A stretch of 42,157 nucleotides of DNA from Clostridiaceae bacterium (GTDB lineage: Bacteria; Bacillota; Clostridia; Saccharofermentanales; DTU023), in NCBI GenBank assembly GCA_012518845.1, contig JAAYRJ010000161.1, forward strand, positions 1 to 42,157, in the 5' to 3' direction. Shown in pieces: positions 17,894-29,516 of this stretch. The notes beneath the pieces were generated by a model. It ran no database searches, was not told where the DNA came from, and worked only from the letters and a program-made list of their open reading frames with translations. A program made the position numbers and the translations under genes. Every line of letters starts with the position of its first letter. Positions within the stretch are counted from its first letter, which is position 1.

Positions 17894-18814
17894 ATGAGTA
17901 AAACAAAAATTAAGAGTCTAAAAATAATTTGTGTTATCCTGATATTCTTTTTTACAACAGCTTGTTCTAGTCCTAAGACTGATAATGATGTAGAACCTGT
18001 TGATGACCAATTATTTGAAAAAGAAACTATAAAATCAATAGAGTCAAAATCTAATTCTGCTAAAAAATATTCTGTAAAAACTGATATAGCTTCCGCTCCA
18101 ACAGATATTTCTGTAAAGAATCCTAATGGAATACCTGAAGAAAACAAAACATCAAATCACTCTTATCCAGAGATCACAGAGATCAAAGGAACAAGAGAAA
18201 AACCAACACCTGAATCAAAAAGTACTCAAACAGAAAACCGTATTTTATCCGATAGTGAAAGACAAGTACGCCTCGAAGTCCCCATAAAAATTCAAGAAGT
18301 GTGGAATTACTGTGCTCCAACTACTGTTAGCATGATATTGGATTATAAAGGAATCGATATTGATCAATATCAACTGGCGACAGAAATGGGCACTTACGAA
18401 CCTTTTGGTACGCATAATGCTGATGCTATTCGTATTTTAAATAAACATCTTTTTGGCTATGAATACCCTGCAGATAATGAGCCAGGCTACCGCATAGCTA
18501 CAGTTACAAACTCAGATCTTAATTCCGAAGATATGCATTTATTTAAAGAACGTGTTATTGATAATATTAATAATGACTTTCCCATGTACTATACTTTTGA
18601 TATGTCAAGAATTTATCCAGGAAAAGCTGGAGAACATAATGTTGTAGGAACAGGATATGAGCTAACTGCTGATGGAGCGGATATTGCTTATGTGTATTTT
18701 CTTGATCCACTTGCTTCCATGCAAGATCCGATTCATGGAGGTTTGAAAAAAGTTACACCCCAAGAGTTGTTATATGCTATGTTAACTTGCGAGGAGCCTA
18801 ATTATGCTTGGTAA
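17894..18814 (+). CDS. Lipoprotein with C39-like (Peptidase_C39_2 type) papain-fold domain
   Basis: Lipobox-like FFFTTAC; Ser/Thr/Lys-rich linker; C-terminal domain with candidate catalytic Cys (NYCAPTTVSMIL), His (AGEHNVVGTGYE) and Asp (YVYFLDPL). Confidence 0.72.
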   Translation: MSKTKIKSLKIICVILIFFFTTACSSPKTDNDVEPVDDQLFEKETIKSIESKSNSAKKYSVKTDIASAPTDISVKNPNGIPEENKTSNHSYPEITEIKGTREKPTPESKSTQTENRILSDSERQVRLEVPIKIQEVWNYCAPTTVSMILDYKGIDIDQYQLATEMGTYEPFGTHNADAIRILNKHLFGYEYPADNEPGYRIATVTNSDLNSEDMHLFKERVIDNINNDFPMYYTFDMSRIYPGKAGEHNVVGTGYELTADGADIAYVYFLDPLASMQDPIHGGLKKVTPQELLYAMLTCEEPNYAW

Positions 18815-24935: not shown

Positions 24936-27900
24936 TTGATACAAAATTTAGCAGAAGTATTTTCATATTTTAATATTGAATGGCTAGATGACGATCAAAG
25001 TATTTTTGTAAATTGTGCTTCAAACTTAAATAGAATTCATTCTTTGCAAGAAATTCCTGTATTGGGAATGTGTTGTTCCATCTCAGGCGAACTTTCTATT
25101 TCCATTGAAGTTAAAAACTTATTGAGTCCAAAACAAATAATTCTCCTAGAAGAAATATTTGAGAATTTTTTTGATATTTCGCAAGTAATAATTAAGCAAG
25201 TATCTACAACACAAATTAGTGAAAAATCTCAACATGAATTTTTATCACAAGCAGAAATCTGGATAAAAAGACATGCCAATAAATATGAAGGCTTGGAATC
25301 AAGTCTCTTTGCCTTAGGCAAGGCTGAAACAAAAGGTAATAAACTTACTTGGCACATGCAAAACAACCATTACACACTTATCTCACAAAACGAGATAAAT
25401 TGGTTACAGCAATTTTGGGATAAATTTGGACCGTTTAATTCTAAGATAAGAATAAATCCAGTTAATGAACAAAGTTCCGAAGAACTAATTGAAAACACAG
25501 AAAAATTATTTTTAGAAGCAAATACTATTTCAAGTGAATTATATCAAGAAAAAATTGTGCAAATAGAAGAAATTAAGCAAGAAAATGCTAATTCTAAAGC
25601 TGTGGAAAAAAATAATGGAAATAGATTTCGAAAAAAACATCGAGTTTCAGAAAATGTTTTGTGGGGGAGAACAGGTCCTGAAATACCGATGATCAAACTT
25701 TCTGATATTAATCATGAAACAGATCGTGCTTTGTTTGAAGGACAAGTTTTTTCATATGAGACTAAAATCACAAGGAACGGTAGTCTGTTAGTAAAATTTG
25801 CAATTACTGATTTAACAACTTCTATTTCGTGTATTTTGTTTGCTGATCCTGAAGAAAAAGATCATTTAACAAAAATTATTAAAAATAATTATTTGAAAGT
25901 TACAGCAAATATTTCATACGATGATCGTTATGCTAAAGATTTTGTAGCGAGAGTAACTTGTATTGAGTCTGCAATAAAACCTCAAGGCCGATCAGATGAC
26001 TCTTTAGAAAAAAGAGTAGAGCTACATATGCACTCAAAATTATCGGCTAAGGATGGCACAATAAGTCCTGCAGACATCGTAAAAACTGCTTCTAAATTTG
26101 GTCATCAAGCAGTTGCGATTACTGACCATGGTGTTGTTCAGGCTTTCCCTGATATTGCCGCCACAGCAGATGAGCTTGCTAAGGCTGGAAAACCCATTAA
26201 AATAATTTATGGTTTAGAAGGTTATCTACTAGATGATGGTTTTGATTGCTTTGCTTTTAAAGTAGAGGATGTATCTTTAACGGCAGACTTTATAATTTTT
26301 AAATTAAATGTAAGTGGTAAAGATCCTCAAACTGACTACATTAAAGAAATAACTGCACTCAAATTCTCTTATCAGGGTGAAGAAAAAACTGAAGCTGAAA
26401 ATACGAATAATAGTGTCAATAATTTAGATGAAACAAATAGCATACCTCAAACTGAAAACTACACAGATCAGCAATTGAATTCTTCAGCCAAAATAAATCC
26501 CGAAGATTATTTGCTTGCTGATAGTTTTTATGCCACTTTGGATATAGATAACGATGAAAACATTGAAATTCTGAAAAAGTTTTCTGAGTTTTGTAAAGGC
26601 TCAATACTTATTTCAGAAAATGCATTGTTACAATTAAACTTTTTACGTTATGCAGGCTTTAATGTAGAGGAAAGTGAACCACGTGTAAAATTTAATCCGC
26701 CTTTAATTGATTTGCATCAGATGCAGAAAGCAGTTGAAAAATATTCAAAAGAGCCAATTAAGTTTAGTCCAAATTCTAAGGTAATATTAACAAGTAAGAA
26801 AAAAGAATTATCTATGATCCGTTCTGAGGATTTTATCAATCTCAAAGAATTTGCGGTAAAATTTATTCTATTATTACAAAAGGCAAATATAAATCAATTA
26901 ACCGAACTAAACACAAAATTTTCAGATTATGAATCATTCAAAGAATTAAAAAAACAACGTAAAAAAACAAACCATATTTTATTGTTGGCAAAAGATTCTT
27001 TAGGTCTTTATAACATGTATAGAATGTGCTCTCTGGCACATATTGATTATTTTTACTATTCACCTCGAATTCCTCGTTCTTTATTAACCTACTATGGAAC
27101 TGGAATTATTAAAGGTATGGCATGTGTAGATGGTGAGTTATTTCAAAACATCTTGAAAATTTACAATGATTGTAATGGTGATTACGAACAGGCAAAGAAA
27201 AAATTAAATAATCCTAATTTGTTAAAAATAGCAAAATATTATGATTTTTTAGAAGTTCAGCCTCTAACTAATAATAGCTTTTTGATTAGAAAAGAGGACA
27301 ACTGCATTGATAGTAAACAGGATTTACAGAATTTAAATCGCTTAGTATTGGAATTAGGAGAAATCACCAACATGCCTGTTTGTGCAACTGGTGATGTACA
27401 TTATCTAAATCCAGAAGATGCAATTTATCGAAAAATTTTAATGACAAATATGAACTTTGATGATATGGAAGAAATGGCGGAGTTATATTTTAGAACAACA
27501 GAAGAAATGTTAGCTGAATTTTCTTATCTCGAGTCAGATTTAGCGCATAAAATTGTCATTGAAAATCCAAATGAAATTGCAGATTCGGTCGCTAACAAAA
27601 TTAGACCGTTCCCAGAAGGTTCTTTCCCGCCAGATATCAAATCTGCTGATCAAAATATAAAGGAATTAACATTAAAAAATGCCATGGCTATTTATGGGTT
27701 TGAAGGACAATTACCCGAAATTGTTTCAGCTAGGATAGAAAGAGAATTGTCATCAATTATAAGCAATGGCTTTGCCGTAATGTACTATATTTCTCATTTG
27801 GTTGTAAAAAAATCTAATGAAGATGGATATATAGTTGGGTCTAGAGGTTCTGTTGGTTCATCTTTAGTTGCTACCTTGTGTGAAATAACTGAAGTTAATC

Positions 27901-29516
27901 CTTTACAGCCCCACTATGTCTGTCCTAATTGTAAATATTCTGAATTTGATGATAGTGGGGATTATGGTTCTGGTTTTGATTTACCAGAAAAAAATTGTCC
28001 TAAATGTGGAACAGTATTCGGCAGGGATGGTCAAGACATACCATTTGAAACATTTTTAGGATTTTATGGAGATAAGCAACCAGATATAGATTTAAATTTC
28101 TCTGGCTTTTATCAAGCAAGAGCTCATCAATATATTGAAGATATGTTTGGTACAAAACAAACTTATCGTGCAGGGACAATTAGTAGCTATGCAGAAAAAA
28201 ACTCTGCTGGAATGGTGCTTAATTATTTCGAAGAGCAAGAAAGACCTGTTAGTCAAACCGAAGTCACAAGGTTATCACAAGGACTACAAGGAGTTAAAGT
28301 AACCACTGGTCAACATCCAGGTGGAATGGTTGTTATACCCAAGGACAGGGATATTTTTGATTTTACACCAGTTCAATATCCAGCCAATAAAAAAGAATCC
28401 GGAGTTATTACAACTCATTTTGATTTTAATTCATTACAAGAAACAATTTTAAAATTAGATATCTTAGGGCATGATGATCCATCAATGCTCAAAATGTTAG
28501 GTGATATTACAGGAATTGATGTGACAAAAATCCCTATTCCAGATGAAAAAGTAATGTCACTATTTCATAGCACTGAAGCACTTGGGATTCCAGATGAAGA
28601 ATCAACTATTAAATCTGCAACAATTGGTCTGCCAGAATTGGGAACTTTCTTGGTACGGAGCATGATCGCAGAAACAAAACCAACTCAATTTTATGATCTT
28701 GTGCAGATTTCTGGCTTGTCACATGGAACTGATGTCTGGACAGGAAATGCCCAAGAGCTAATTAGAGATGGTACATGCACAATCAATGATGTAATTGGCT
28801 GCCGCGATAGTATTATGACATATTTAATTTACCGTGGTCTCCCAAATAAATCCGCCTTTGATATTATGGAAAAAGTGCGTAAAGGTAGGGGATTGAGTGA
28901 AGATGATGAAAAACTGATGCGAAAACATGATGTTCCAGAGTGGTACATTGAAAGTTGTAAAAAAATTAAATATATGTTTCCAAAGGCACATGCTGTTGCT
29001 TATTTGATTTCTGCTCTAAGGATCGCCTGGTTTAAAGTTTATTATCCAGAAGCTTATTATTGTGCTTTTTTCACAATAAGAGCTACTGAATTTTCAAGTG
29101 ATGAATTATGTTTAGCGCCAAATATTATAAAACAAAAACGAGCAGAACAAAGAAGAAATTGGAATGATCTTACAGCCCAGCAACAAAAACGTCATTTTTA
29201 TCTTGAATTAGTTGAAGAAATGCAAGCTCGAAATATTGATTTTTTACCTTTCGATTTAGAAAAATGTGAAGCAACTGTTTTTTATTCACCAGAAAAAGGT
29301 AAAATTAGACCTGCCTTAAACGCTATTCCAAATATAAGTGATGCACTTGCAAAGCAAATTGTTGAAGCAAGAAAAAATGGTGGTGAATTCAAAACACAGG
29401 AAGAACTTTCAAGAAGAGCACAACTAGGTCCAGCTGCAATGGAAGCTCTTGCTTCTACAGGTATGCTGGACGATATACCCGAATCTGCCCAAATTGATTT
29501 GTTTTCATTGTTATAA
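24936..29516 (+). CDS. polC: DNA polymerase III PolC-type alpha subunit, with degenerate exonuclease domain
   Basis: PHP motif RVELHMHSKLSAKDG...AVAITDHGVVQAFPD...YGLE; HYVCPNCKYSEF...CPKCGT; QPDIDLNFSGFYQARAHQYIEDMFG; KLDILGHDDP; SGLSHGTDVWTGNAQELI; YMFPKAHAVAY; C-terminal QIDLF clamp-binding-like motif; TTG start with AAGG upstream. Confidence 0.95.
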   Translation: MIQNLAEVFSYFNIEWLDDDQSIFVNCASNLNRIHSLQEIPVLGMCCSISGELSISIEVKNLLSPKQIILLEEIFENFFDISQVIIKQVSTTQISEKSQHEFLSQAEIWIKRHANKYEGLESSLFALGKAETKGNKLTWHMQNNHYTLISQNEINWLQQFWDKFGPFNSKIRINPVNEQSSEELIENTEKLFLEANTISSELYQEKIVQIEEIKQENANSKAVEKNNGNRFRKKHRVSENVLWGRTGPEIPMIKLSDINHETDRALFEGQVFSYETKITRNGSLLVKFAITDLTTSISCILFADPEEKDHLTKIIKNNYLKVTANISYDDRYAKDFVARVTCIESAIKPQGRSDDSLEKRVELHMHSKLSAKDGTISPADIVKTASKFGHQAVAITDHGVVQAFPDIAATADELAKAGKPIKIIYGLEGYLLDDGFDCFAFKVEDVSLTADFIIFKLNVSGKDPQTDYIKEITALKFSYQGEEKTEAENTNNSVNNLDETNSIPQTENYTDQQLNSSAKINPEDYLLADSFYATLDIDNDENIEILKKFSEFCKGSILISENALLQLNFLRYAGFNVEESEPRVKFNPPLIDLHQMQKAVEKYSKEPIKFSPNSKVILTSKKKELSMIRSEDFINLKEFAVKFILLLQKANINQLTELNTKFSDYESFKELKKQRKKTNHILLLAKDSLGLYNMYRMCSLAHIDYFYYSPRIPRSLLTYYGTGIIKGMACVDGELFQNILKIYNDCNGDYEQAKKKLNNPNLLKIAKYYDFLEVQPLTNNSFLIRKEDNCIDSKQDLQNLNRLVLELGEITNMPVCATGDVHYLNPEDAIYRKILMTNMNFDDMEEMAELYFRTTEEMLAEFSYLESDLAHKIVIENPNEIADSVANKIRPFPEGSFPPDIKSADQNIKELTLKNAMAIYGFEGQLPEIVSARIERELSSIISNGFAVMYYISHLVVKKSNEDGYIVGSRGSVGSSLVATLCEITEVNPLQPHYVCPNCKYSEFDDSGDYGSGFDLPEKNCPKCGTVFGRDGQDIPFETFLGFYGDKQPDIDLNFSGFYQARAHQYIEDMFGTKQTYRAGTISSYAEKNSAGMVLNYFEEQERPVSQTEVTRLSQGLQGVKVTTGQHPGGMVVIPKDRDIFDFTPVQYPANKKESGVITTHFDFNSLQETILKLDILGHDDPSMLKMLGDITGIDVTKIPIPDEKVMSLFHSTEALGIPDEESTIKSATIGLPELGTFLVRSMIAETKPTQFYDLVQISGLSHGTDVWTGNAQELIRDGTCTINDVIGCRDSIMTYLIYRGLPNKSAFDIMEKVRKGRGLSEDDEKLMRKHDVPEWYIESCKKIKYMFPKAHAVAYLISALRIAWFKVYYPEAYYCAFFTIRATEFSSDELCLAPNIIKQKRAEQRRNWNDLTAQQQKRHFYLELVEEMQARNIDFLPFDLEKCEATVFYSPEKGKIRPALNAIPNISDALAKQIVEARKNGGEFKTQEELSRRAQLGPAAMEALASTGMLDDIPESAQIDLFSLL

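Follow-up and report, generated by a model that had tools for sequence, protein, structure and literature searches.

The PolC replicase of Bacillus, Enterococcus and Geobacillus (PDB 9QPC, 3F2B) carries an active DEDDh exonuclease as an insert within its PHP domain, and position 8 of the nine PHP metal ligands is Asn in most of the Bacilli examined. PolCs without the Exo insertion are known from Clostridia and Negativicutes, and DnaE1 has been suggested as the possible main replicase (Timinskas et al., 2014, PMC3919608). In Mycobacterium tuberculosis the nine-ligand PHP site of DnaE1 has been demonstrated to be the proofreading site (PMC5636811). A 2026 survey describes PolA2/APEX and PolB2, accessory A- and B-family enzymes with an inactivated 3′-5′ exonuclease, and reports that the domain inactivated in Pol III alpha subunits is PHP rather than DnaQ (PMC12926913).

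The PolC described here lies in the window, the whole 42,157-nucleotide stretch of DNA that was analysed, which belongs to an uncultured clostridium of the order Saccharofermentanales. It is like canonical PolC in domain order, in its polymerase and clamp motifs and in the position of the insert in PHP; however, its DEDDh site appears dead and its PHP site is complete. With the Exo-less PolCs it shares the apparent absence of DEDDh activity, a genome encoding both PolC and DnaE1 and a complete PHP site, but in those proteins the domain is deleted (PMC3919608), whereas the window PolC has a full-size domain with a predicted fold, under selection, from which the catalytic residues are gone. Its PHP site is proposed below as the proofreader, as in M. 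tuberculosis, with the difference that the enzyme is PolC instead of DnaE1 and the activity is inferred. The vestigial DnaQ-like domain recalls those of PolA2/APEX and PolB2 (PMC12926913), although here it resides in a C-family replicative alpha subunit. Exo-less PolCs were already known, but a retained and catalytically dead DnaQ domain in PolC runs against that survey. The open-access papers found do not describe a PolC whose DnaQ domain lost its catalytic residues several times independently and yet was retained under selection, and the open-access search likewise gave no paper linking Saccharofermentanales with DNA polymerase.

The features of the gene, placed by profile, motif, structure and family alignment and an AlphaFold2 model, are as follows (window coordinates).

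24936-29516, + strand: polC, PolC-type DNA polymerase III of 1526 aa with a TTG start (profile and structure alignment)
26001-26243, + strand: PHP domain, first part, with metal ligands H364, H366, D373, H398 and E428
26265-26969, + strand: degenerate DnaQ-like (DEDDh) exonuclease domain inside PHP, aa 444-678 (motif reading, family comparison, AlphaFold2 model)
26283-26366, + strand: former Exo I, ADFIIFKLNVSGKDPQTDYIKEITALKF, with K456 (D lost) and N458 (E lost) (alignment)
26607-26645, + strand: former Exo II, LISENALLQLNFL, with E561 (H lost) and Q566 (D lost) (alignment)
26646-26696, + strand: R571 ... R583-x-K585-F586-N587 element of the insert (aa 571-587), present in PolCs of the order whether their exonuclease is intact or dead
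26961-27530, + strand: PHP domain, second part, with metal ligands H680, C730, D820 and H822
28083-28091, + strand: polymerase palm aspartates D1050 and D1052 (PDIDLN), intact by alignment
29490-29504, + strand: C-terminal clamp-binding motif QIDLF, intact

The protein is a full-length PolC according to curated profiles, matching the NCBIfam equivalog NF001688 over aa 52-1523 with 1415.5 bits (cut-off 873) and TIGR01405 with 1278.5 (cut-off 1043). Its reading frame is open throughout, without internal stop or frameshift, and the nine PHP ligands, the catalytic aspartates D1050 and D1052 and the clamp motif are all present, so the PHP and polymerase motifs are in frame and undamaged, as the initial annotation of this DNA had held. 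The gene order frr-uppS-cdsA-dxr-rseP-ispG-polC-priA-def is a conserved neighbourhood in which rseP-ispG-polC-priA represents the ancestral arrangement. The genes pyrH and frr are usually adjacent; in the window they are separated by a gene for a C39-like peptidase (17894-18814). In the genome of the window (1.77 Mb, 237 contigs, 88% complete) only this PolC and one DnaE1 were found, and both a second PolC and a DnaE with an active exonuclease, the latter a possibility the same annotation had wished to see checked, were rejected on that ground.

When aligned to the solved Enterococcus faecium PolC (9qpc) the insert is in register at both Exo I and Exo II. At Exo I, K456 (codon 26301) stands where D is expected and N458 (codon 26307) where E is expected, while at Exo II E561 (codon 26616) replaces H and Q566 (codon 26631) replaces D. 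These are exactly the four substitutions, at exactly the codons, that the initial annotation had read from an insert it described as still alignable with its catalytic motifs lost, and its claim that the Exo III HxxxxD is gone also holds, as neither HxxxxD nor DxExT occurs anywhere in the insert, where the sole His is H594. The Pfam RNase_T profile (PF00929) gave no match to the window PolC even at E<=10, although it does match exo-intact PolCs from the same order. Since exo-intact PolCs from this family and this order have D, E, D, H and D at the five equivalent positions, the loss in the window exceeds chance. With all of its catalytic residues replaced, the integral DEDDh proofreading exonuclease is, judging from its sequence, catalytically dead, and the rest of PolC being intact and under selection, this is specific loss of the exonuclease rather than pseudogenisation or frameshift, as had been argued.

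Nonetheless, the dead domain continues to be translated, has a predicted fold and evolves under purifying selection. An AlphaFold2 model of aa 352-870 (pLDDT 84) gives the insert an exonuclease-like alpha/beta fold lacking the catalytic residues, the outcome of a modelling check that had been suggested for it, and matches the Thermotoga maritima PolC exonuclease 2p1j (E 1.2e-4); the model of a Saccharofermentans PolC (L056, pLDDT 82) is also exonuclease-like, its insert matching RNase T and DnaQ structures weakly (E about 1e-3), and both models lean on homologues and are not independent, as their input alignments contained intact ones. In the genus of the window (g1) dN/dS of the insert is 0.10-0.28, compared with 0.05-0.07 for the flanking PHP and palm parts, and its dN relative to the flanks is 3.0-5.4x, compared with 1.0-2.2x in exo-intact genera. 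Selection on the insert in g1 is relaxed, though clearly purifying. Within the f2 g8 lineage dN/dS of the insert is 0.05-0.09 for close pairs, and 0.32 and 0.42 for two distant, near-saturated pairs. R571, K585 and F586 are conserved at 100% in nine exo-dead genera and nearly invariant in exo-intact ones, making this a non-catalytic element that is still seen by selection. The insert is reduced to 170-175 aa in genus g2.

Within the order, PolC was found in 162 of 190 genomes searched, and 82 PolCs were read together with 80 named PolCs for comparison. All seven examined species of g1 have an exo-dead PolC, with Exo I replacements differing between them (K..N, Q..D, N..E and K..H). Exo-dead PolCs occur in nine genera, namely g1, g2, g4 and part of g6 in family f1, g8, g23, g24 and g25 in f2 (a lineage including L056 and L057, 'Saccharofermentans sp.') and g12 in f4, and exo-intact PolCs in f3, f2 g26, f1 g7 and the remaining readable members of f4, of which g14 includes 'Oscillospiraceae bacterium HV4-5-C5C' (L053 = G047). 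Genus g6 is mixed, with G017 and G025 exo-dead and G011, G022 and G028 exo-intact. On the PolC tree, built with the insert left out, the exo label needs six changes, four of them forced by well-supported branches, and if loss is assumed to be irreversible about seven events are required, one outside the order (L125). The DEDDh site has thus died about six to seven independent times, including the one case outside the order, with sister genera intact. On the DnaE1 tree the AU test rejected a single ancestral loss in the family (p 8e-6).

The PHP domain provides a second nuclease centre in the same polypeptide. All nine ligands of its three-metal site are present in the window PolC (HHDHEHCDH), and both this protein and DnaE1 agree with the pattern HHDHEH[C/H]DH, which is complete in DnaE1 of 20/20 genomes examined (the window genome and 19 relatives). 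None of the nine ligands is altered in any of the 49 complete exo-dead PolCs of the order survey, these being 44 from the order, four named PolCs grouping with f2 g8 and L125, with two partial sequences excluded. A class-wide even sample of 148 genomes yielded 100 readable PolCs: 80 exo-intact and PHP-complete, 15 exo-absent and PHP-complete (plus one partial), two exo-degenerate and PHP-complete and two exo-intact with a broken PHP, giving a complete PHP in 17/17 fully readable PolCs with the exonuclease absent or degenerate. No PolC that had lost both sites was found in either the order survey or the class-wide sample. Conversely, the PHP-broken PolCs all retain DEDDh (G012, L106, G277, G303 and those Bacilli in which N has replaced D at position 8, as in most of those examined). 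The mirror case is L030 (G012, f1 g7), on a long branch, in which DEDDh is intact and PHP is ruined (HKDRELLNH). G. kaustophilus PolC, with Asn at position 8, is reported to lack PHP exonuclease activity, and mutation of the matching Asp in M. tuberculosis DnaE1 abolishes its PHP exonuclease (PMC5636811, PMC3666897). Outside the Bacilli the association between exonuclease loss and PHP integrity is not significant (66/0 vs 166/4, Fisher p=0.58), because Clostridia nearly all have an intact PHP whatever the state of the exonuclease. The pattern is consistent with a PHP proofreader, permitting such a model without proving it.

As PHP is kept perfect in every complete exo-dead PolC surveyed, it is the foremost candidate proofreader. 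We consider it somewhat more likely than not that the PHP site of PolC, that of DnaE1 or both carry out proofreading and that the dead DEDDh domain is kept as a folded scaffold, as its predicted fold and purifying selection suggest. Fidelity would rest on the three-metal PHP of PolC, with that of DnaE1 working alongside, and mispaired 3′ ends would be directed into the PHP site, whereas Bacillus PolC uses its DnaQ site. With PHP able to proofread, the DnaQ site would have been free to decay, several times in the order and, elsewhere in Clostridia, as far as outright deletion of the domain. In support, when scaled to DnaE1 the polymerase core of PolC does not evolve faster than it does in lineages whose exonuclease is intact. 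This role of PHP is read from sequence, and the site could instead be kept for structure or for another reaction; no paper demonstrating proofreading by the PHP of any PolC was found in the open-access literature. The initial annotation had concluded that the organism either replicates without proofreading in cis or obtains it elsewhere, a choice that is incomplete in overlooking the complete PHP site, whose nine intact ligands mean that proofreading in cis may still take place; supply by a DnaQ or epsilon in trans is disfavoured (below). The broader proposal, that PolC has two interchangeable proofreaders and that PHP repeatedly took over in this order with the dead DnaQ domain kept structurally, is put forward more tentatively. 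If so, PHP would serve PolC as a genuine proofreader during replication and would be no relic. The clade inverts the expected pattern (DnaQ kept, PHP lost) several times, and because relatives with an intact exonuclease, with a dead one and with no PolC at all occur next to one another in it, it provides natural pairs for asking whether the PHP of PolC proofreads, whether PolC or DnaE1 is the chromosome replicase and what purpose a non-catalytic exonuclease domain has.

The clean deletion of polC in sister genera makes demotion of PolC the main rival to proofreading by PHP. DnaE1, with its complete PHP, would copy the chromosome, PolC would be secondary and need no proofreading, and loss of the exonuclease would be a step toward loss of polC, an idea also raised by Timinskas et al. 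for Clostridia with PolC and DnaE1 (PMC3919608). In g3 and g5, which belong to the family of the window (L222, L223, L225, L226, L227, L228), rseP-ispG is followed directly by priA and polC is absent, so DnaE1 alone is able to replicate such chromosomes; on the DnaE1 tree the exo-dead g2 is sister to the PolC-less g3. However, the ratio of PolC core to DnaE1 distance is not raised in exo-dead g1 (0.71-0.83 vs 0.68-0.97 between exo-intact pairs) and so gives no sign of a relaxed polymerase, core dN/dS in g1 is 0.05-0.07, and the PHP of PolC stays perfect with the clamp motif kept. Demotion is a possible but doubtful account.

That these bacteria are natural mutators, with no replicative proofreading and with base selection and mismatch repair sufficing, appears improbable. 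DEDDh loss recurs, profile searches of the g1 genomes found no epsilon and all seven g1 members encode MutS, by which missing mismatch repair was itself rejected as an explanation. Against this, two PHP sites, in PolC and DnaE1, keep all nine ligands, and when B. subtilis PolC no longer proofreads, mismatch repair becomes partly saturated and selection acts against the strongest hypermutators (PMC11890065), a cost that is hard to square with the survival of whole genera.

Proofreading in trans by a separate DnaQ-like exonuclease, the source elsewhere that had been envisaged, is very improbable. PF00929 gave no match in G001, G004, G005 and G006 (4/7 g1 genomes, 89-96% complete), and since these are drafts absence from any single one is uncertain, but absence from four is telling. 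With TIGR00573 (dnaq) three of these four gave no match and G004 gave only a sub-cutoff one (E 0.004, with two stops). The PF00929 matches in the other genomes were a Cas2-DnaQ fusion alone in G002 and G003, and in G000 such a fusion (L002) together with a DEDDh-BRCT protein (L001). These two could favour a trans exonuclease, but the Cas2-DnaQ fusion adjoins cas1 and they were the only candidates in the genus, leaving no epsilon-like gene. An ERI1/KapD-like DEDDh protein that occurs commonly in the order was also rejected as compensator, being absent from g1, present in exo-intact genera and uncorrelated with the loss. The fusion in G000 (contig C124) comprises Cas2 and a DEDDh DnaQ domain among type I-E-like CRISPR adaptation genes. 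The DEDDh exonuclease whose C-terminal part is BRCT-like (L001, contig C176) is absent from other g1 genomes, has a counterpart in another family (L155, G050) and is possibly mobile.

That the DEDDh site is intact but unrecognised through relocated residues, or the sequence erroneous, has a negligible probability and found nothing in its favour, given that the single His of the insert offers no alternative motif, that the frame is open from end to end and that seven species agree in the loss with different sets of replacements; sequencing error, frameshift and strain decay were rejected on this concordance, and the relatives, whose motifs had been named as a check, speak likewise, as sister genera are intact but the loss is clade-wide and recurrent.

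Further variants of PolC were observed in the survey. In a distant clostridial family, L295 (G254) and L308 (G306) have degenerate inserts of 136-140 aa, which may represent a more advanced state of the decay seen in this order. Two PolC matches per genome were present in G071, G122, G293 and G326, and in G293 the first copy is intact and the second (L326) is without the exonuclease insert.
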